Shown here: piece after piece, positions 11,759 through 63,637 of the stretch
Position numbering within the stretch: the stretch's first letter is position 1
Layout: the number at the start of each line of letters is the position of its first letter
Origin: Rhodamnia argentea
Lineage: Eukaryota; Streptophyta; Magnoliopsida; Myrtales; Myrtaceae
Direction of reading: 5' to 3'
NCBI RefSeq assembly: GCF_020921035.1
Contig: NC_063152.1
Coordinates: 23,882,887-23,946,886, forward strand
Length of the DNA: 64,000 bases
The notes under the pieces: generated by a model
Databases searched by the model: none
What the model saw: only the letters and a program-made list of their open reading frames with translations
Told to the model about the DNA's origin: nothing
Made by a program: the position numbers and the translations under genes

Positions 11759-12496
11759 TCATGGGAAATAGAAGTTCGACCATGGAGGGGTAAGGTTGCC
11801 GCACGGGTACGACGGCAGCGGCTCGTTCTGGCCGAGATTCGCTGTATTGCCCTCTTTGCACGGCTTCAAAAACTCCATGTACCAAGGCCGGTTCTGCATG
11901 GCCTCCGCGGCCACGACATCATCCAGAGCGGAGTTGTTCTTTGGAGCAGCCTCGCTGTTGTCCCCTTCCGAACCCTTATCTGCCGTCGGCTCTGCCGATA
12001 CCGCCTGCTCCGAGCCCAGTGCTGTGTTCTTCAGCTTCTTGATCCTCTCCTCGATCTCCTTTCCGGTCTTCTCCAGCATCCACCCCAAGTCGTTCAAGTC
12101 CAAGATGGTCAGGCCCTGGAGCGGCTGGCCGACGAGGGCCCGGTACATCACCTGGCAGATCTCCATCTCGCGGTTCTCGCGCAGCTGCTTCTTCAGCTGC
12201 TCCTCGGCCTTCACGATCCTCTGCCGGATGAACCCTTGCTGGTTCACCATCCGCTTAGCCTGGTCCATCTCCGACATGTTCTTGAACCTGGCAATGGCTC
12301 GGCGTGTCCCCAGCGTGGATGGCCACACCTCCGGCTCGGCCTGATACCGGCTGTAGATGATGGCGCAGGCCTCGATCCCGCACAGCGTGCTCAGCTCGCT
12401 CACCTTCTTCATCAAGCCCTTCTTCCTCTTCTTGAAAGCGGCTTTCCTCGCCCCGTCGTTGGCGATGTAGGTGAGGGTGACTTTCTTTCTGGTCAT
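11759..12496 (-). CDS. Type I (M-gamma) MADS-box transcription factor, AGL80-like, copy 1
   Basis: A single-exon, 245-residue nuclear DNA-binding protein. The MADS domain spans residues 1-60: 'MTRKKVTLTYIANDGARKAA' is followed by the KKG-LMKKVSELSTLCGIEAC block and 'PEVWPS'. A short basic, coiled central region (about 70-155) contains 'NQQGFIRQRI' and 'DLNDLGWMLEKTGKEIEERI', as in Arabidopsis AGL80 and its relatives; a Ser/Glu-rich linker and 'PWYMEFLKP' follow. Lack of introns and the missing K domain are typical of type I genes. Family members act in the central cell and endosperm; that role is known for the family, not shown here. It differs from copy 2 at about 38 of 245 residues, including Arg50 where copy 2 and AGL80 have Pro in the 'YSPY' motif. 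A MULE sits 62 bp past the stop and may have replaced the poly(A) region. Confidence 0.93.
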   Translation of the reverse strand: MTRKKVTLTYIANDGARKAAFKKRKKGLMKKVSELSTLCGIEACAIIYSRYQAEPEVWPSTLGTRRAIARFKNMSEMDQAKRMVNQQGFIRQRIVKAEEQLKKQLRENREMEICQVMYRALVGQPLQGLTILDLNDLGWMLEKTGKEIEERIKKLKNTALGSEQAVSAEPTADKGSEGDNSEAAPKNNSALDDVVAAEAMQNRPWYMEFLKPCKEGNTANLGQNEPLPSYPCGNLTPPWSNFYFP

Positions 12497-12573
12497 GGCT
12501 AGGGGGATTGGTGCTCTGCAAGGAAAACGTTGGATGATCTCTGTGGGGCTTTCTTGCCCCTCAGGGCAGAGGG

Positions 12574-12581
12574 TTTATATA
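12574..12581 (-). promoter_or_regulatory. TATA box of MADS gene 1
   Basis: On the minus strand the sequence reads 'ctatataaaccct', with the TATA element ending about 77 bp before the ATG at 12496. The same element at the same spacing is kept in copy 2. Confidence 0.7.
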
Positions 12582-13727: not shown

Positions 13728-14465
13728 TCATGGGAAGAAGAAGTTCGACCATGGAGGAGGAGGGTTTCCGTACGGGTAGGACGGCCTCGGCTCGTTCTTG
13801 CTGAGATTCATGGTATTGCTCTCGTTGCGCGGCTTCAGAAACTCCATGTACCAAGGCTGGTTCTGCATGGCCTCCACGGCCACGACATCATTCAGAGCGG
13901 CATTGTTCTTCGGAGCCGCCTCACCATTCTCCTCCTCCGAACCCTTATCTACCTTTGGCTCCGCTGGTGCCGCCTGCTCCGAGCCCGGCACCATGTTCTT
14001 CAGCTTTTTGATCCTCTCCTCGATCTCCTTCCCGGTCTTCTCCAACATCCACCCCAAGTCGTTCAAGTCCACGAGGGTCAGGCCCTGGAGTGGCTCGCCG
14101 ACGAGGGCCCGGTACATCACCTGGCAGATCTCCTTCTCGCGGTTCTCACGCAGCTGCCTCTTCAGCTGCTCCTCGGCCTTCACAATCCTCTGCCGGATGA
14201 ACCCTTGCTGGTTCACCATCCGCTTGCTCTGATCCATCTCCGACATGTTCTTGAACCTGGCAATGGCGCGGCGTGCCCCCAGCGTGGATGGCCACACCTC
14301 CGGCTCGGCCTGGTACGGGCTGTAGACGATGGCGCATGCCTCGATCCCGCACAGCGTGCTCAGCTCGCTCACCTTCTTCATTAGGCCCTTCCTTCTCTTC
14401 TTGAAAGTGGCTTTCCTCGCGGCGTCGTTGGCGATGTAAGCCAGGGTGACTTTCTTTCTAGTCAT
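13728..14465 (-). CDS. Type I (M-gamma) MADS-box transcription factor, AGL80-like, copy 2
   Basis: A single exon of 245 residues. The MADS domain (1-60) begins 'MTRKKVTLAYIANDAARKAT' and ends 'IVYSPYQAEPEVWPS', closer to the AGL80 consensus than copy 1. The central helix-forming region with 'FIRQRIVKAEEQL' and 'DLNDLGWMLEKTGKEIEERI', and the C-terminal 'PWYMEFLKP', are shared with copy 1. The length is unchanged between copies, with no indels, which suggests both are still under selection. The 3' flank is intact here, without the MULE. Type I M-gamma proteins usually work as heterodimers with M-alpha partners such as AGL61/AGL62; no partner gene is visible in this window. Confidence 0.94.
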   Translation of the reverse strand: MTRKKVTLAYIANDAARKATFKKRRKGLMKKVSELSTLCGIEACAIVYSPYQAEPEVWPSTLGARRAIARFKNMSEMDQSKRMVNQQGFIRQRIVKAEEQLKRQLRENREKEICQVMYRALVGEPLQGLTLVDLNDLGWMLEKTGKEIEERIKKLKNMVPGSEQAAPAEPKVDKGSEEENGEAAPKNNAALNDVVAVEAMQNQPWYMEFLKPRNESNTMNLSKNEPRPSYPYGNPPPPWSNFFFP

Positions 14466-14544
14466 GGCTAGGGGGATTGGTGCTCTGGAAGGAAATCGTT
14501 TTGGACGATCTCTGTGAGGCTTTCTTGCCCCTTAGGGCATAGGG

Positions 14545-41649: not shown

Positions 41650-42086
41650 GGGGAAAATTACCAAAAAATCCTATACTTGTTACAATTATGTCAATTTAGT
41701 CTTGAACTTTTTTTTTTTCTAATTGAATCCTAAACCTTTTGCAATTGTGCCAATTTAGTTCATTTAGCCGGTCGACACTAACATGGAAATTTTTTTAATA
41801 ATATTTAATATTTCACAAATTTTTTATTTATTTTCAATATATATATATATTTTTGTCTTTTTTAAGGCCAGCAGGATGTTGCTGGACACTATCCAAGGGC
41901 CATCGACCTTGGCAAAAAAAATTATTAGAAAATTCAAAAAATATTAAAGTATTAATAAAAAATTTCCACGTCAACACTAGCCCGCTACATGGGTTGAATG
42001 GTACAATTGCAAAAGGTTTAGGATGCGATTAGCAAAAAAATTGGCATAATTATAATAAGTTTAGGATTTTTTTGGGTAATTCTCCC
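41650..42086. mobile_element. MULE-type MITE, family A, copy 1
   Basis: 437 bp with inverted ends beginning 'gggaaaattaccaaaaaat' and ending with its complement ('gggtaattctccc'). It has no coding capacity. Flanking 9-mers at 41641-41649 and 42087-42095 are worn. The paralogous sequence at 58375-58395 lacks the insertion and shows the single target 'aaccagcca'. It is shared with copy 2 at 52806-53251. Confidence 0.75.
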
Positions 42087-43806: not shown

Positions 43807-45361
43807 ATGGCGCATCCACGCTTCAGAGCCGGTGCGGAGGTGGAGATCACCAGCCCCATCCACCGCCTCCGGGGAACGCTCTTCCCCGGGAGAGTCGTCG
43901 CTCCATCGCCCCACAAACCCCACGCCTTCTTGGTTGAGTACAAAACCCTAATCAGCGACGCTGGCAGCCCTTTCAAGGCCGTGCCGGGAGGAGGTCTCCG
44001 TCCGCCTCCTGAGGCCTAACTCGCTGGCAGAAACCAGCCGGAGTTTCCATCTCGGCAACATCGTCGACGCGTTCTTAAGCAGGGGTTGGTGGGAGGGAGC
44101 GATCACCATGGCAGTGAAGAGCACGCGGTACATGGTGTACTTCCGGTGCGTGAAGAAGCACTACCGGTTCGACGCGGTGGAGTTGAGGCTCCATCAGGAG
44201 TGGGCAACAGGAATTGGGTCCCGTCATTTGAGGCTGAGGGGGAAGATGGTGACAGTAATGATGATGAGGTAGATTGTTGATTAGGTTTTCTCGTTCGATT
44301 TCAATCACGTTTCTTGAAAGCCTCGCTGCTTGGAATGAATTCCCTGTCTAGTCGTGATTAGCATAGGAAGATTTGACATGATAATCTTAGTGAATTTTTG
44401 CTAGAATTTAAAAGCATTAGAATACTTTCTCTCTAATTTCCTAAAGCCCTCTACTTTGTTAACTTAGCTGTAGTTTCTTATGGTCTCTGAAAGTTCTCAT
44501 TGATTTTCTTTTGTTTGGTCGAAGTTGTGGTTGATTTCAAAGTATTTAAGTTACTAGCTGTGAAGGCCTAATTTGATTAGCTAATGACATTGTTATGTCA
44601 ATTGAAAGGTAGTGATCAGTAGCAACCCTTTTGTTGATAAAGTTCAGACAAACAATCCGCTTCACTGATTTGATTCCCAATATATTAAGGTAAAAAAGTA
44701 GGTATTAACAAAGAATGCCTGAGTCAACGCAATGACAATCGTTTCTCATTCTCATCGTTGATTGTTTACAAGATGCAATTTCGAAAACTTTATGCTGTAT
44801 ATGATATGTAACATGCTTTGCAGTCTCCGTAAGGATGAGGAAGTCACTAAAACTTCTCATGCTAATCTCAATCTTTGGATATTGCAGAAAGTGACCTCAA
44901 CAATGGAAGAGGAATCTAGCAACGTTTGACAAAGAGGGAAGGGAGTGTTCGCCAAGGGAGCACTGGTCGAGGTGAGAAGTGACGAAGATGGACTCCAAGG
45001 TGCTTGGTTCGCGGGCACCATAATCAACAAGGCAGCGAGGAACCAGTTCTTGATCAAGTACCAAACCCTCAGAGCGGAGGATAATAGCTCAGAGTACTTG
45101 AGGGAGCAAGTCGCCACAAGTCATATGAGGCCTTACCCGCCGGAGACCTTCGTGGTCGACCCTTCTGAAAGGAACGCAAGGGTCAATGCCTTGTACAAGG
45201 AAGGGTGGTAGGAGGGCATCGTCGAGAGGGTTCTCGCTGGAATGCGGTATCGGGTTTATTTCGAGGGCACTGGAGATAGGATGGAGTTCCGCCACTCGAA
45301 GCACCATCCTCATCAGGATCTGGTCGATGGGAAGTGTGTGATGCCTTCTCAAGTCTTGTAG
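43807..45361 (+). pseudogene. Agenet-domain gene, copy 1, broken
   Basis: Same two-exon layout as the intact gene at 59290-60684. Exon 1 starts 'MAHPRFRAGAEVEITSPIHR' but shifts frame after about codon 57 and again near 44206 ('gggcaacagg' for 'gggtcaacgg'). Exon 2 (about 44888 on) has a TGA in place of the Cys codon in 'GDVCQ' and a TAG in place of the second Trp of 'GWWEG'. It therefore has at least four disabling changes. The intron, its donor 'GAG|GTAGATTG' and the 3' stop are still recognisable. It shares a downstream foldback with copy 4. Confidence 0.88.
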
Positions 45362-45582
45362 GACCAGTTCGTGTCGTTGTATATGGTGTAGTTGGTCTTC
45401 GTACTAAAGTACTAAGGCTATGGGATCTTGAGCTGAGGTGTAGATTAACTTTTTTTTTTTTTGTGAGTAAGGTAGTGGAGGTTAAAAATATGAAGACCAA
45501 GAAAAGAGGGGGTCTGCAGGAGTGTAACCAATATGACTGATGCATATACAACCAAGAAAAGAGGTCCTGCTCTGAAAACCTT

Positions 45583-45792
45583 CTTCAGTACGAAGACCAA
45601 CTACACTATGTGCAACAACACGAACTGGTCATACAAGACTTGAGAAGGCATCACCCACTTCCCATCGACCTGATCCCGATGAGGACAAAGCTCCGAGTGG
45701 TGGAACTCCATCCTATCTCCAGTGCCCTCGAAATAAACCCGATATCGCATCCCGGCGTGGACCCTCTCGTTGATGCCCTCCCACCACCAGAT
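45583..45792 (-). pseudogene. Inverted fragment of Agenet exon 2 (fourth domain)
   Basis: On the minus strand it encodes 'WWWEGINERVHAGMRYRVYF' and continues through 'EFHHSELCPHRD' to the end of the exon and some 3' flank. It opposes 45203-45430 of pseudogene 1, so the two form a foldback with arms of about 200 bp around a roughly 150-bp spacer. Its open end abuts the recurring 3'-flank segment at 45787. Confidence 0.85.
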
Positions 45793-52805: not shown

Positions 52806-53251
52806 TAGGAAAATTACCAAAAACTCCTAAACCTATTGCAATTATGACAATTATGCCAATTTAATCCTAAACATTTTGCAATTGTGTTAATTCAGTCCTT
52901 ATCGTAGGTCAACTCTATCATGGTAATTTTTTTAATAATATTTAATATTTCACAAATTTTTTATTTATTTTCAATAATATTTTTTTTGTCTTTCTTTTTT
53001 TGTTAAGGGCCGAAAGAGGTTGCTGGACCCTACCCAAGGGCAGCCGACCTCGAGGGCCAAATGGAAAAACATTATTGGAAAATTCAAAAAACATTAAAGT
53101 ATTACTAAAAATTTTCCATGTCAACACTAGCCGACTAAATGGACCAAATGGCACAATTGCAAAAAATTTAGGATTCAGTTGGCAAAAACAAATGTTTATG
53201 ACTAAATCAGCATAATTATAATAGGTTTAGGACTTTATTGATAATTCTCCC
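52806..53251. mobile_element. MULE-type MITE, family A, copy 2
   Basis: 446 bp, the paralog of 41650-42086 at the same relative place. The flanking 9-mers 'aaccggcca' (52797-52805) and 'gatcggaca' (53252-53260) are derived from the single 'aaccagcca' seen at 58375-58395. Confidence 0.75.
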
Positions 53252-54780: not shown

Positions 54781-56245
54781 TTGCGCCGCAAACCCCACGC
54801 CTTCTTGGTCGACTACAAAACCCTAATCGACCAAAGCGACGCTGGCCGCCCCTCCAGGCCATACAGGGAGGAGGTCTCCGTAGGCCTCCTGAGGCCGAAA
54901 CCGCCTGCCGAAACCAGCCGGAGTTTCCATCTCGGCAACGTCGTCGACGAGTGCTTAAACGGCGGGTGGTGGGAGGGCGCGATCGCCAAGGCACTGAAGA
55001 GCTCGTGGTACATAGTGTACTTAGGGTGCGTGAAGCAGCAGTACCGGTTCGACGCGGCGGAGCTGAGGCTCCATCGGGAGTGGGTCAACGGGAATTGGGT
55101 CCCGCCGTTTGAGGCAGAGGAGGAAGATGGTGACAGTGATGATGATGAGGTAGATTGTTGATTTGGTTTTCTCATTCGAGTTCAATTACTTTCTTGAAAG
55201 CCTCGCTACTTAAAGTGAATTCCTTGTCTAGTAGTGACTAGCATAGAAAGATTTGACGAAATAGTCTCAATGAATTTTTGCCAGAATTCGAATGCATTGG
55301 AATGCTTTCTCTCTTATTACCTAAAGCCCCGTACTTTGTTAGCTTACCTGTAGTTTCTTATCGTCTTTGAAAGTCCAGATTGATTTTCTTTTCTTAAGTT
55401 GAAGTTGTGGTTGATTTCAAAGTATTTAAATTACTAGCTGTGAAGGCCTAATTCGATTAGCTTATGACATTGTTATGTCAATTGAAAGGTAGTGGCGAAT
55501 AGCAACCCTTTTTTTTATAAATTTCAGATAAATGATCCGCTTCAGATTGTTTGGTTCTCAATTTACTGAGGTAGGAAAAGTAGGTATTAGCGGAGAATGC
55601 CTGAGTCGATGCAACAGTAATAGTTTCTCATTCTCATAGTTGATTGTATATAAGATGCATATTTCGTAAACTTTATACTGTATATGATATGTAAAATGCT
55701 TTGCAATCTCCGTAAGGATCAGGATGTCACCAATAACTTCTCATGCTAATCTCAATCTTTGGATGCTGCAGAAAGTGAGCTCAACAATGGAAGAGGAATC
55801 TGGCGACGTTTGCCAAACAAGGAAGGGAGTGTTCACGAAGGGAGCACTGGTTGAGGTGAGAAGTGACGAAGATGGACTCCAAGGTGCTTGGTTCGTGGGC
55901 ACCATAATCAACAAGGCAGCGCAGAACCAGTTCTTGATCGAGTACCAAACCCGCAGAGCGGAGGATAATAGCTCGGAGTTCTTGAGGGAGCACGTCGCCA
56001 CAAGTCATATGAGGCCTTACCCGCTGGAGACCTTCGTGGCCGACCATTCCGAAAGGAAGGCAAGATTCGATGCCTTGTACAATGAAGGGTGATAGGAGGG
56101 CATCGTCGATAGGGTTCTTGCTAAGACGCGATATCAGGTTTATTTCGAGGACACTGGAGATAGGACGGAGTTCCACCACTCGAAGCTCCATCCTCATCAG
56201 AATCGGGTCGATGGGAAATGTGTGATGCCTTCTCAAGTCTTGTAG
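54781..56245 (+). pseudogene. Agenet-domain gene, copy 4, 5'-deleted and broken
   Basis: The promoter, start codon and first 30 or so codons are missing: the sequence jumps from promoter-like DNA straight to the 'RRKPHAFLVDYKTL' part of domain 1. The rest of exon 1 is open through the acidic end 'EEDGDSDDDE' and the intron donor. Exon 2 (about 55773 on) is open through 'GVFTKGALVEVRSDEDG' until TGA-TAG replaces 'WW' of 'GWWEG' at about 56090; copy 1 has TAG at the second of these Trp codons. The shared TAG and shared downstream foldback show that copies 1 and 4 have a recent common ancestor that was already broken. Confidence 0.87.
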
Positions 56246-56368
56246 GACCAGTTCGTATCGTTGCATATAGTGTAGCTGGTCTTCGTACTAAAGTGTTAAG
56301 GCTATGGGATCTTGAGCTGAGGTCTTCGTACCCCTCTTTTCTTGGTCTCCACATGGGTAATCTACACC

Positions 56369-56604
56369 TCAACTCAAGATCCCATAGAATTAACACTTCA
56401 GTACGAAGACCAGCCTACACTATATGCAACAACACGAACTGATCCTACAAGACTTGAGAAGGCATCACCCATTTCCCATCGACCCGATCCTGATCAGGAC
56501 GGAGCTCTGAGTGGTGGAACTCCATCCTATCTCCAATGCCCTCGAAATAAACCCCGATACCGCATCCCGGCGAGAACCCTCTCACGATGCCTTTCCACCA
56601 CCAA
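56369..56604 (-). pseudogene. Inverted fragment of Agenet exon 2 beside copy 4
   Basis: The reverse complement of about 56089-56320, separated by only about 50 bp. It is the counterpart of 45583-45792, but with a shorter centre. The inverted arms include the 3' end of exon 2 and about 90 bp of flank ('ctatgggatcttgag'). Confidence 0.83.
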
Positions 56605-59289: not shown

Positions 59290-60684
59290 ATGGCTCATCC
59301 AATCTTCAGATCCGGAGCGGAGGTGGAGATCACCAGCCCCATCCAACGCCTCCGGGGAACGCTCTTCCCCGGCAGAATCGTCGCTCCATCGCGCCGCAAA
59401 CCCAATGCCTTCTTGATAGAGTACAAAACCCTAATCGCAACTTGCGACGCCGGCCGCCCCTCCAGGCCACACCGAGAGGAGGTTTCCGTCGGGCTCCTGA
59501 GGCCGAACCCGCCAGCCGAAATGGGCCGGAGTTTCCATCTTGGCGACGTCGTCGACGCGTTCCTCAACGGGGGGTGGTGGGAGGGCTCGATCACCAAGGA
59601 ACTGAAGGGCTCGCGGTACATGGTGTACTTCCGGTGCGTGAAGCAGCAGTACCGGTTCGACGCAGCGGAGCTGAGGCTGCACCGCGAGTGGGTCAACGGG
59701 AATTGGGTCCCACCGCTCGAGGCCGAGGAGGAAGACGGTGGTGATGAGGTAGATTGTCGATTAGGGTTTCTCGTTGGATTTCAATTATATCTCTTGAAAG
59801 TCTCACTGCTAGCAGTGAATTCTTTATCTAGTCGTGATTAGCATAGGAAGATTTGACATGATAATCACAATGAATGCTTAATTCGATTAACTTATGACAT
59901 GGTTATGTCAATTGAAAGGTAGTGGCAAGTAGAGATCCTTTCTGTCGATAAAGTTCAGAAAAACGACCCGCTTTAGATTATTTGGTTCTCAATTTATTGT
60001 GGTAGGAAAAGTAGGTATTAGCAAAGAATACCTGAGTCGACGCAGTGGCAATAGTTTCTCATTCTCACAGTCGATTGTTTACAAGATGCAATTTTGAAAA
60101 CTTTATGCAGTATATGACATGCTTTGCAATCTCGATAAGGTCGTGTTCGCATGAAAATGAGGAAGTCACCAATGACTTCTCACGCCAATCTCAATCTTTG
60201 GATATTGCAGGAAGTGACCTCGACAATGGAAGAGAAATCTGGCGACGTTTGCCAAACAGCGAAGGGAGTGTTCGCCAAGGGAGCACTGGTCGAGGTGAGA
60301 AGTGACGAAGATGGACTCCAAGGTGCTTGGTTCGCGGGCACCATAATCAACAAGGCAGCGAGGAAACAGTTCTTGATCGAGTACCAAACCCTCAGAGCGG
60401 AGGATAAAAGCTCGGAGTACTTGAGGGAGCAGGTGGCCGCAAGTCACATGAGGCCGTACCCGCCAGAGACCTTCGTGGTCGACCCTTACGAGCGGGAGGC
60501 AAGAGTCGATGCCTTGTACAATGAAGGGTGGTGGGAGGGCATCGTCGAGAGGGCTCTCGCCGGGATGCGGTATCGGATTTATTTCGAGGGCACTGGAGAT
60601 AGGATGGAGTTCCACCACTCAGAGCTCCGTCCTCATCGGGATTGGATCGATGGGAAGTGGGCGATGCCTTCTCCAGTCTCGTAG
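59290..60684 (+). CDS. Agenet (plant Tudor-like) domain protein, four domains, intact
   Basis: Two exons: 59290-59748 (153 codons) and 60211-60684 (157 codons plus stop). The 462-bp GT-AG intron (GAG|GTAGATTG to GATATTGCAG) is in phase 0. The product is 310 residues. Four Agenet repeats in two pairs: about 5-77 ('AEVEITSPIQRLRGTLFPGR'), 81-142 ('FHLGDVVDAFLNGGWWEG'), 172-240 ('FAKGALVEVRSDEDGLQGAW') and 241-306 ('YNEGWWEGIVERALAGMRYR'). Agenet domains belong to the Royal (Tudor/Chromo) superfamily, and tandem pairs in plant proteins such as DUF724 members and FMRP-like readers bind histone tails or RNA. There is no C-terminal DUF724 region or other catalytic domain. This is the only copy of at least five in the window that is open throughout. 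The start agrees with copies 1-3. The exact ligand cannot be inferred. Confidence 0.9.
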
Positions 60685-60719
60685 GACCAGTTCATGTTGT
60701 TGCATATAATGTAATTGGT

Positions 60720-61300
60720 CCTCAGGTTTCATACATCTCGAAACTTGAGGAAGAAGAGCGACGTGTACATCTTCAGCATAGTTTTATTCGAGTTAATCAC
60801 TAGCCACTCCGCCGTTATAAGAAGTCCGGAAGGCAGCATGCACATACTTCCGGGGCATAGTTTTATTCGAGTTTATCACTAGCTACTCCGCCGTTATAAG
60901 AAGTCCGGAAGGCAGCATGCACATACTTCACCGGGTAACTCCACTCATGAAAAGAGGTTAAATGGCCAATTCAATATCGGTTCTGCATGGAAACCGGTGG
61001 AAATAGCCATGTCGTGCGTGCCGACGACAGGCAGTCCAAAGGCCAAACATCGTCCGGCACGCACGACATGGCTATTTCCACTGCTTTGCATCAAGAACCG
61101 ATGTTGAATTGGTCATTTAACCTCGGGTTGACAATGCTTTGGATGACCGCTCTTTCTATGAGCGAACCTCTTTCTATGAGTGGAGTTACCTAGTGAAGTA
61201 TGTGTATGCTGCCCTCTGTAGTGATTAACTCGAATAAAACTATGGTGAAACTATACACGTCGCTCTTCTTCCTCAATTTCCAGATGTATGAAACCTGAGG
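60720..61300. repeat. Foldback of two opposed receptor-kinase fragments
   Basis: The ends 'cctcaggtttcatacatct' are inverted copies, and the arms 60720-61023 and 61055-61300 are imperfect reverse complements. The innermost 26 bases of each arm (60998-61023, 61055-61080) pair perfectly around a 31-base centre. The left arm on the plus strand encodes 'KKSDVYIFSIVLFELIT' and 'PEGSMHILHRVTPLMKRG'; the right arm on the minus strand encodes 'KKSDVYSFTIVLFELIT', 'VTPLIERG' and 'VEIAMSCVPDD'. This is kinase subdomain IX onward of a plant LRR (malectin-like) receptor kinase. The left arm has a 74-bp tandem duplication (60777-60850, 60856-60929), and both arms have stops. It starts 35 bases past the Agenet stop codon and interrupts the 3' flank kept uninterrupted in copy 3. 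Confidence 0.82.
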
Positions 61301-63062
61301 ATTCAAAAGGAATTGTCACTCTTCTTCCTCATCAGTATATCTTTACTGCTACATATGCATCGGTCTTACCGGTTGCACCCGTGCACATCACAGTTATATT
61401 CAGTCTCATTCGCATTCTTTGTGCGTTTGGAAGTTACAGTCACTTTGAATGCTTGGATAGGAGAAAATGTTTATGTTCCTTGTGGAAGTCATGGTCTGGA
61501 ATTAAAGAAACTACAGACCGGACCGTATGCCGCTCTTGAAATTTCTCAGTTCTTAGGATTATAGTTAGTGTCCTATGAAATGAAGCCAAGGAGCTCTTTG
61601 ATCGGATTCTTTGGGTCATATGTGGAAACTCGGTTGCTAAAGTGATTGAATGTTTCAACTGAAATAACTTTTAGGATGAAGCCACTGGCTGAAATTGTTC
61701 ATTGTTTCATCTATACACCCGTGTTAACATTAAATGCCCAGACCCCAAAATTATGTCTATTGATCGAATAACGAGATTGTTCATTTAATTATTTTGTTTC
61801 ACACATTGTTTAGTGGATAACTTAGATATAAGCAAAAGTGATCCATTGACATATTTTACCAACCGGTTTGGTAGAGAGTCATGATTTGCACAAATGTTCT
61901 TTGTTCTAGGCCAAAGGTGTGATTTAGCACCTATTGATCAGTTTCAAGGATTTTCTTCAACGATTTGCTAGTACTGCTTGACTTATTTATATTTCATTAC
62001 TAGAATTTTCGATGCTATTGATGTCGATGTCGTTAATCTCATGGCTTGAACTCTGTGTCATTTATTAGCATGTGAAGGACTTTATATTAACGCCCAACAA
62101 AGAACCCACCATTCTCTTGTTAGAGAATTCACATTCAGATTTTTGTAAAATCTGCCCTCACATTTTCACAAAACTATTTTTCAATGCCACACACATACAC
62201 ATATCTATTATATATCATACGAATTTTTTAATGAAGGGTTTTTTTTTTTGGTCGAATTAATGAAGGGTTTTAGAGACCAATTAATCAACAGAAACCAATG
62301 ATAACGATATCATCCGAATTAAGGATTGACGGCAATTGAAAACGGTTCTTCCGCCTAGAAACGAAATGTTCCAAATGTTCTTAGAAATTCTTGCTCCCAT
62401 TGAACCATTTGTATCCACATGCATTAGGATCTCGATTTTTATTTGATCTTTTGAATGCGCTCTTCCTTGTTCAGTTTTTAATCCAAATTATTCGATCACG
62501 TGAATATGCTTAGTGGAAGGACTAATTAGCAGGTTATTGCAGTGAAATGGAGCTTACATGTGCCTTATTGCAATTAGTTAATCCTACAGCTTTGGAAAGA
62601 TGCGGTATAAATAGAATTTGATCCGTTTCTGATTGTTACTTTTGTTTCTTGCTGTCATTAAAGAAAATGAAGTCATGATCTATTTTTTCTTTTCAGTCTA
62701 TTGAATTCAGCCTATTGAATAGAAAAATAAAAAGGAATTTGGCCAAACAAAATTCTATTTAACAAAAATAAAAAGTCGCGATAGTTACTATAGACGTCAA
62801 CCCGCATTAAAATAGAAAACATATTACCATTTTCTTCGAAATAGAGAGAAAAATGAAATAGTTTCAACAAAAGAGAAAAGGAGAAAAAAAAAAACTCTCT
62901 CCGGAAGTATTGAAAATTAAGTACTGAAAATATAAAGCTTTGATTTTCTCAAGTAGTGAAAATTAAAAATTAAAAATTTTCTTGACGATGAGTTGAAAAT
63001 ATGAAGCGTTGATTTTCTCAAGTACTAAAGATATAAGTATAACGCTGACAATTACCGATATG
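61301..63062. other. Downstream flank of the intact Agenet gene, no gene
   Basis: 61330-61718 matches the inverted flank at 49553-50060. From about 62500 it matches 47340 onward ('cattaaagaaaatgaagtcatgatctattttttc'-like words). The AT-rich remainder has no recognisable gene. Confidence 0.6.
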
Positions 63063-63072
63063 TTTTAGTAAT

Positions 63073-63637
63073 GGGAAAATTGCTAAAAAAAATCATAAAC
63101 CTTTTGGATTTTTGTCAATTCAGTTCTAAACCTTTTAAATTTTTTGATTTAGTCGTGAATTTTTTCAACTTTTGCCGATTCGATCCTATTAGCTGGAAAT
63201 CGTTGACATGGATAACGGTTGTCCTACGAGGCACTACCGGCGCTAATATGGATAATATTTTATAGGATTTTAATATTCTTTCGAATGTTTTTATTTATTC
63301 ATTTTATTTTATTCTTTTTTCTATTTATCTTTTTACAGTTTCCTTTTTTTTCCTTTTTAATCTTTATTTTTTCCCTCCGGCGGCGAGCAAGGGCTGCCTC
63401 ACCCGACGACGGAGGGAAAAAAGAAAGAAAAAGGAAAAAAAAAAAGAGGAAAAACTTTGTCCACGCCTGCGCCGGCGGTGTCATGTAGAACGGCCTACAT
63501 TCACAAAAACGATTTCCGACCCATAGGATTGAATTGGTAAAGGTGAAAGGGGTCTAGAATTGAATCAACAAACTTAAAATGTTTAGGATTATATTAGCAA
63601 GTGTAAAAGGTTTAAAAAAAATTTCACCTTTTTTCCA
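63073..63637. mobile_element. MULE-type MITE, family A-like, 565 bp
   Basis: Inverted ends 'gggaaaattgctaaaa' and the complement of 'ggaaaaaaggtgaaat' lead into 'aaacctttt' repeats on both sides. Identical 10-mers 'ttttagtaat' flank it (63063-63072, 63638-63647), containing a 9-bp target duplication. The paralog near 47961-47970 has 'atgtagtaat' once and no insertion. The centre is a purine/pyrimidine-rich GC island (63375-63480). Confidence 0.85.

Follow-up and report, generated by a model that had tools for sequence, protein, structure and literature searches.

A decayed inverted receptor-kinase fragment in the 3' flank of an Agenet gene, most likely left by template-switch break repair

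Within a 64-kb stretch of DNA (the window, 64,000 nucleotides in all), an Agenet gene is followed closely by two fragments of one kinase gene that face each other. The Agenet, receptor-type kinase and MADS-box sequences of the window suggest plant DNA. How did this foldback come to lie there, and is its potential to form a hairpin put to any use? We consider it a decayed inverted receptor-kinase fragment in the Agenet 3' flank that most likely arose through error-prone, template-switch break repair, and not a transposable element. The gene and the foldback are composed as follows.

59290–59748, plus strand: Agenet gene, exon 1, with putative start and donor site (Pfam PF05641, E = 5.4e-14; translation)
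60211–60684, plus strand: Agenet gene, exon 2 to the stop codon, with putative acceptor AG at 60209–60210 (Pfam PF05641, E = 9.1e-24; translation)
60719–61301, no strand assigned: whole foldback, 583 bp (inverted pairs I1–I6, arm alignment, foldback score)
60719–61023, plus strand: left arm, kinase fragment in sense, frames broken (arm alignment, translation, phmmer)
60776–60929, plus strand: 75-nt unit present twice (60776–60850 and 60855–60929), copies 97% identical, left arm only
60997–61081, no strand assigned: inner stem and loop, 27-bp perfect arms flanking a 31-nt loop (61024–61054)
61055–61301, minus strand: right arm, same kinase fragment (arm alignment, translation, phmmer)

Agenet proteins are chromatin readers, and the gene encoding this one has two exons and a putative GT-AG intron. 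Its stop codon ends at 60684, and 34 bp follow before the foldback begins at 60719 (35 before 60720), in agreement with the spacing of about 35 bp given in the original prediction. The gene had also been called the only intact Agenet gene, which holds for the final exon: when the final exons of the four copies were compared, this one alone was open, in-frame stops being present in copies A and B and a frameshift in copy C. Divergence from the foldback-bearing copy amounts to 12.1% for A, 13.6% for B and 14.7% for C.

The outer ends of the foldback (60719–60738 and 61282–61301) match perfectly in inverted orientation over 20 bp, and the arms of its inner stem (60997–61023 and 61055–61081) do so over 27 bp. 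The inverted arms that had been proposed are thus real, but each of the perfect lengths first given, 19 and 26 bp, was short by one. In the three principal alignments of the arms, left and right agree in 191 of the 209 columns free of gaps, which corresponds to an arm divergence of 18/209 or 8.6%. Split at its midpoint, the exact foldback reaches a score of 136, and the highest-scoring of 500 mononucleotide shuffles reaches 28, which rules out a chance palindrome. Strong foldbacks are not rare within the window, given that six tiles outrank the foldback's own when the window is covered by 635 tiles, each 583 bp long and set 100 bp on from the one before, an arrangement that leaves most foldbacks off-centre. 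The median tile score is 19 and the tile nearest the foldback (60701) scores 100, the seventh rank of 635, while the six higher tiles lie at two Agenet self-foldbacks (five tiles, starts 45101–45301 and 56001–56101) and at a MITE-like repeat (one tile, 41601). Inverted repeats with similar ends (e.g. AATCCTAAACCTTTTGCAATTGTGCCA at 41.7 kb) are found at 41663–42072, 52851–53187 and 63124–63617; they are MITE-like and apparently belong to one family.

The sequence common to both arms spans KSDVYSF to AMSCVP of a plant receptor-type kinase and reads, with frame breaks or stops, LRKKSDVYxFxIVLFELIT ... EGSxHIL ... PRLNxQFNIGS ... VEIAMSCVP. The outer ends read as kinase as well (LRFHTSRN and LRFHTSGN), and the loop is kinase-like, with VQRPNIV in one frame, which we take to resemble the RP motif found late in kinase domains. 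In a protein search, whose failure had been named beforehand as a refutation, both arms match kinases among PDB chains: by phmmer, the left arm, with X across its broken stretch, finds 2qkw_B ('Protein kinase', E = 6.8e-05), which is Pto, and SymRK (E = 5.8e-04), and the right arm finds SymRK (E = 0.0024). Scores against Pfam PK_Tyr_Ser-Thr stay below threshold, the best being 19.1 bits against a curated cut-off of 23.1 with any match in four of six kinase pieces, as is expected of pieces so short and broken. SYMRK is an LRR kinase, and a parental kinase of LRR type is plausible, its leucine-rich part being absent from the arms. Of the initial designation as LRR receptor kinase, phmmer upholds the kinase origin of both arms; the LRR subclass does not follow, since the arms consist of kinase-domain sequence only. 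Neither blastn nor tblastn detected a second kinase-like stretch in the 64-kb window, the best tblastn match outside the foldback having E = 0.23. Viral and prokaryote collections yielded no exact pattern match and, in protein scans, 35 and 116 pattern matches with no confirmed relatives, a result that is uninformative for plant DNA.

Both arms are decayed, each in its own way. Compared with the right arm, the left one has lost a stretch and carries an internal tandem duplication; the right arm, for its part, lacks sequence that the left one has, contains a 13-nt direct repeat (61150–61162 and 61168–61180) and is broken by two in-frame stops. Since each arm retains stretches that are missing from the other, both go back to a single longer fragment and have decayed separately. 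The 75-nt tandem duplication is probably younger than the foldback.

The origin of the foldback has to be read from its junctions, where two further features lie.

61315–61331, minus strand: 17-nt kinase-like scrap beyond the right end, 16/17 identical to arm piece 61259–61275
61337–61499, plus strand: flank in which homology to Agenet copy C (minus strand, 50049–49886) returns, the alignment being ended by the query end

On the left, Agenet homology stops at about 60720 in the alignment with copy C, and for copies A and B the similarity extends as far as 60723; that the local alignment with copy C halts at 60682 is due to a 9-nt gap in that copy. On the right, flank of the copy C type returns 35 bp past the end of the foldback. 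The foldback had been described as interrupting a flank that another copy, numbered 3, keeps whole. The flank is indeed disrupted, yet by more than a mere interruption: about 138 bp of copy C flank are replaced by about 616 bp between the junctions, a change whose direction is unpolarised because the flank of copy C could also be the one that grew or shrank. A scan for direct repeats of 4–12 bp around both junctions, with matches of at least 5 bp reported, returned AATTG (5 bp) and TCCTCA (6 bp, plus its 5-mers), both asymmetric and both near the chance expectation, estimated at about 1.2 5-mers and 0.3 6-mers. TCCTCA stands at 60719–60724 and 61326–61331, so that one copy is at the outer end of the left arm and the other within the 17-nt scrap, and the same scan found no target-site duplication at the symmetric ends of the foldback. 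The scrap, contained in the 35 bp past the right end, has one mismatch to its arm piece and exceeds chance, since none of 200 pieces of 35 bp drawn at random from the window had fewer than three.

With arms 8.6% apart and Agenet copies 12.1–14.7% apart, the foldback appears younger than the duplications, which supports the initial proposal of such an order. Judged from these divergences, it probably arose after the Agenet duplications, provided that its two arms started out identical and have never been homogenised since.

Taken together, the replaced flank, the scrap and the inverted copy argue for break repair with template switching. A break would have arisen in the DNA 3' to one Agenet gene, and in the course of error-prone repair the copying end would have switched templates, so that the kinase fragment was laid down as an inverted copy; the repair would thereby have swapped part of the flank for kinase DNA and left an extra scrap past one end. 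Several points count against this reading, namely that both outer ends stop at one kinase position, like terminal inverted repeats, that TCCTCA might be taken for a short target-site duplication around an asymmetric insert, that the flank replacement is unpolarised, and that long perfect stems survive. Filler DNA and flank loss have been described at plant T-DNA and break-repair junctions (PMC8395108). As far as excerpts of that report portray them, the present locus resembles such junctions in that target DNA was lost and scraps were inserted, but differs in that the insert is an inverted duplication comprising several hundred bases of a gene. The foldback junctions may thus preserve a record of hairpin birth through template switching.

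Whatever its origin, the foldback would affect any RNA that runs into it, and one further element bears on where such an RNA might end.

61233–61238, plus strand: AATAAA, a possible poly(A) signal in the right arm and the only plus-strand AATAAA in 60685–62200

Transcripts passing the Agenet stop codon would contain part or all of the foldback and fold as a long hairpin. Indeed, the long kinase hairpin anticipated for a read-through transcript is recovered in structure prediction, the fold of 60685–61340 having 241 pairs and -361.6 kcal/mol (248 pairs and -348.8 for the opposite strand), and an RNA ending at 61258, just past the AATAAA, is still predicted to form 206 pairs (-298.2). Long hairpin RNAs can be diced in plants, and Dicer-like enzymes could cut this one into siRNAs. 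The predicted fold includes perfect stems of 23, 26 and 27 bp, and their survival could hint at maintenance. These properties, as well as an Arabidopsis kinase-domain inverted repeat that acts in this manner, would fit an active hairpin-RNA or proto-miRNA locus that is transcribed within the Agenet 3' UTR or under a promoter of its own and yields small RNAs silencing receptor-kinase relatives in trans. We nevertheless regard such a locus as unlikely, given that the arms are set apart by large indels and by substitutions at 8.6% of columns and that their 18 differences show no pairing bias (6 G-U pairs on the plus transcript versus 5 on the minus transcript), a sample too small to exclude weak selection. 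Furthermore, Rfam gives no match at gathering threshold in the 64 kb, although a match is not required of a young locus. For the decayed repair product that we favour, the present role is most likely none or weak, that of a hairpin present by accident in the intergenic flank or the 3' UTR of the Agenet gene.

MIRNA loci arising by inverted duplication of protein-coding genes were reportedly described by Allen et al. in 2004. That MIRNA foldbacks can originate in this way is established (PMC1790633, PMC3237417), and one Arabidopsis study counts 16 young MIRNA loci of this origin (PMC1790633). The present foldback is like them in being formed by two opposed pieces of one protein-coding gene, and unlike them, as portrayed in those excerpts, in that its arms are long, carry large indels and are known from sequence alone. 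A closer counterpart is SRKIR-Col-0 of Arabidopsis thaliana, according to the quoted portions of its report a 502-bp inverted repeat of SRK kinase-domain sequence in a relic SRK locus, which gives rise to abundant small RNAs, mostly of 20–21 nt, and suppresses SRK mRNA dominantly; SRKIR-C24, of 434 bp, is a distinct inverted repeat that matches the SRK ecto-domain (PMC7075917). Both SRKIR-Col-0 and the present foldback are inverted repeats of a plant receptor-kinase domain. As these portions describe it, however, SRKIR-Col-0 resides within a relic SRK gene and has mapped small RNAs and SRK as its target, whereas the arms studied here lie past an Agenet gene with no relation to them, contain stops as well as large indels, and are known as DNA only. 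Hence, the statement in the original prediction that no element of such make-up had been described does not stand, in view of SRKIR-Col-0 and of inverted gene duplications as a known origin of MIRNA loci (PMC7075917, PMC1790633, PMC3237417). The kind is already described, and the foldback is a further, decayed example of it in an unusual place. Should it be transcribed and diced, it would count as one more natural inverted repeat of receptor-kinase sequence that could act in silencing, this time away from the S locus and joined to a host gene with no relation to its target; should it be silent, it would be no more than a common gene fragment in decay.

Foldback, MITE and Pack-type transposons of plants have terminal inverted repeats around gene-derived sequence, perfect 20-bp ends and a length of about 583 bp are usual for foldback elements, and pieces of genes can occur within elements of plants. 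A non-autonomous foldback transposon (of MITE, MULE or foldback type) that had captured a kinase fragment and inserted past the Agenet gene would accordingly fit the perfect 20-bp ends, the length of 583 bp and the inverted ends enclosing gene-derived DNA, and TCCTCA at its two positions would offer a 6-bp direct repeat. We find this quite improbable, however, since the symmetric ends are devoid of a duplication and consist of kinase sequence themselves, the flank is replaced instead of split, and no second copy is present in the 64-kb window (blastn, E 1e-3). A simple transposon insertion is disfavoured already by the missing duplication at the symmetric ends together with the replaced flank.

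That the foldback is the remaining inner part of a larger head-to-head pair of kinase pseudogenes would agree with a loop and arms that are all kinase-derived and with arms that decayed separately, but is hardly credible, as tblastn finds no further kinase match in the window and Agenet-type flank is back 35 bp past the right end.

Foldbacks are also present at other Agenet copies. The pseudogene copies A and B have their own 3' end repeated in inverted form (45204–45788 and 56087–56602), with arms at 45204–45409 and 45583–45788 in copy A (89% complementary) and at about 56087–56323 and 56366–56602 in copy B (88% identical across 235 columns). Identity to the intact gene is 89% for the inverted arm of A and 90% for that of B, and between 83 and 90% for all four arms; owing to this resemblance, their hairpin RNA could in principle act upon the gene. 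With the kinase foldback included, a strong foldback lies at or just past the 3' end in three of the four Agenet copies (45400, 56284 and 60720), differing in make-up. A and B have a common outer breakpoint and so look like a single event by descent; the foldbacks at the three 3' ends stem from at least two events, and the Agenet 3' end is possibly a fragile site. Very doubtful, in our estimation, is a scheme that joins these elements, in which the 3' UTR of the intact Agenet gene would hold the kinase hairpin, ended by the AATAAA of the right arm, read-through messages would yield siRNAs against a receptor-kinase family as a repair-born trans-silencing cassette, and the self-complementary 3' ends of the Agenet pseudogene copies, acquired at a near-identical spot, might silence the intact copy. 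Elsewhere in the window, two tandem MADS-box (SRF-TF) open frames occupy 11759–12574 and 13728–14531 on the minus strand (Pfam E = 1.4e-16 and 2.5e-19).
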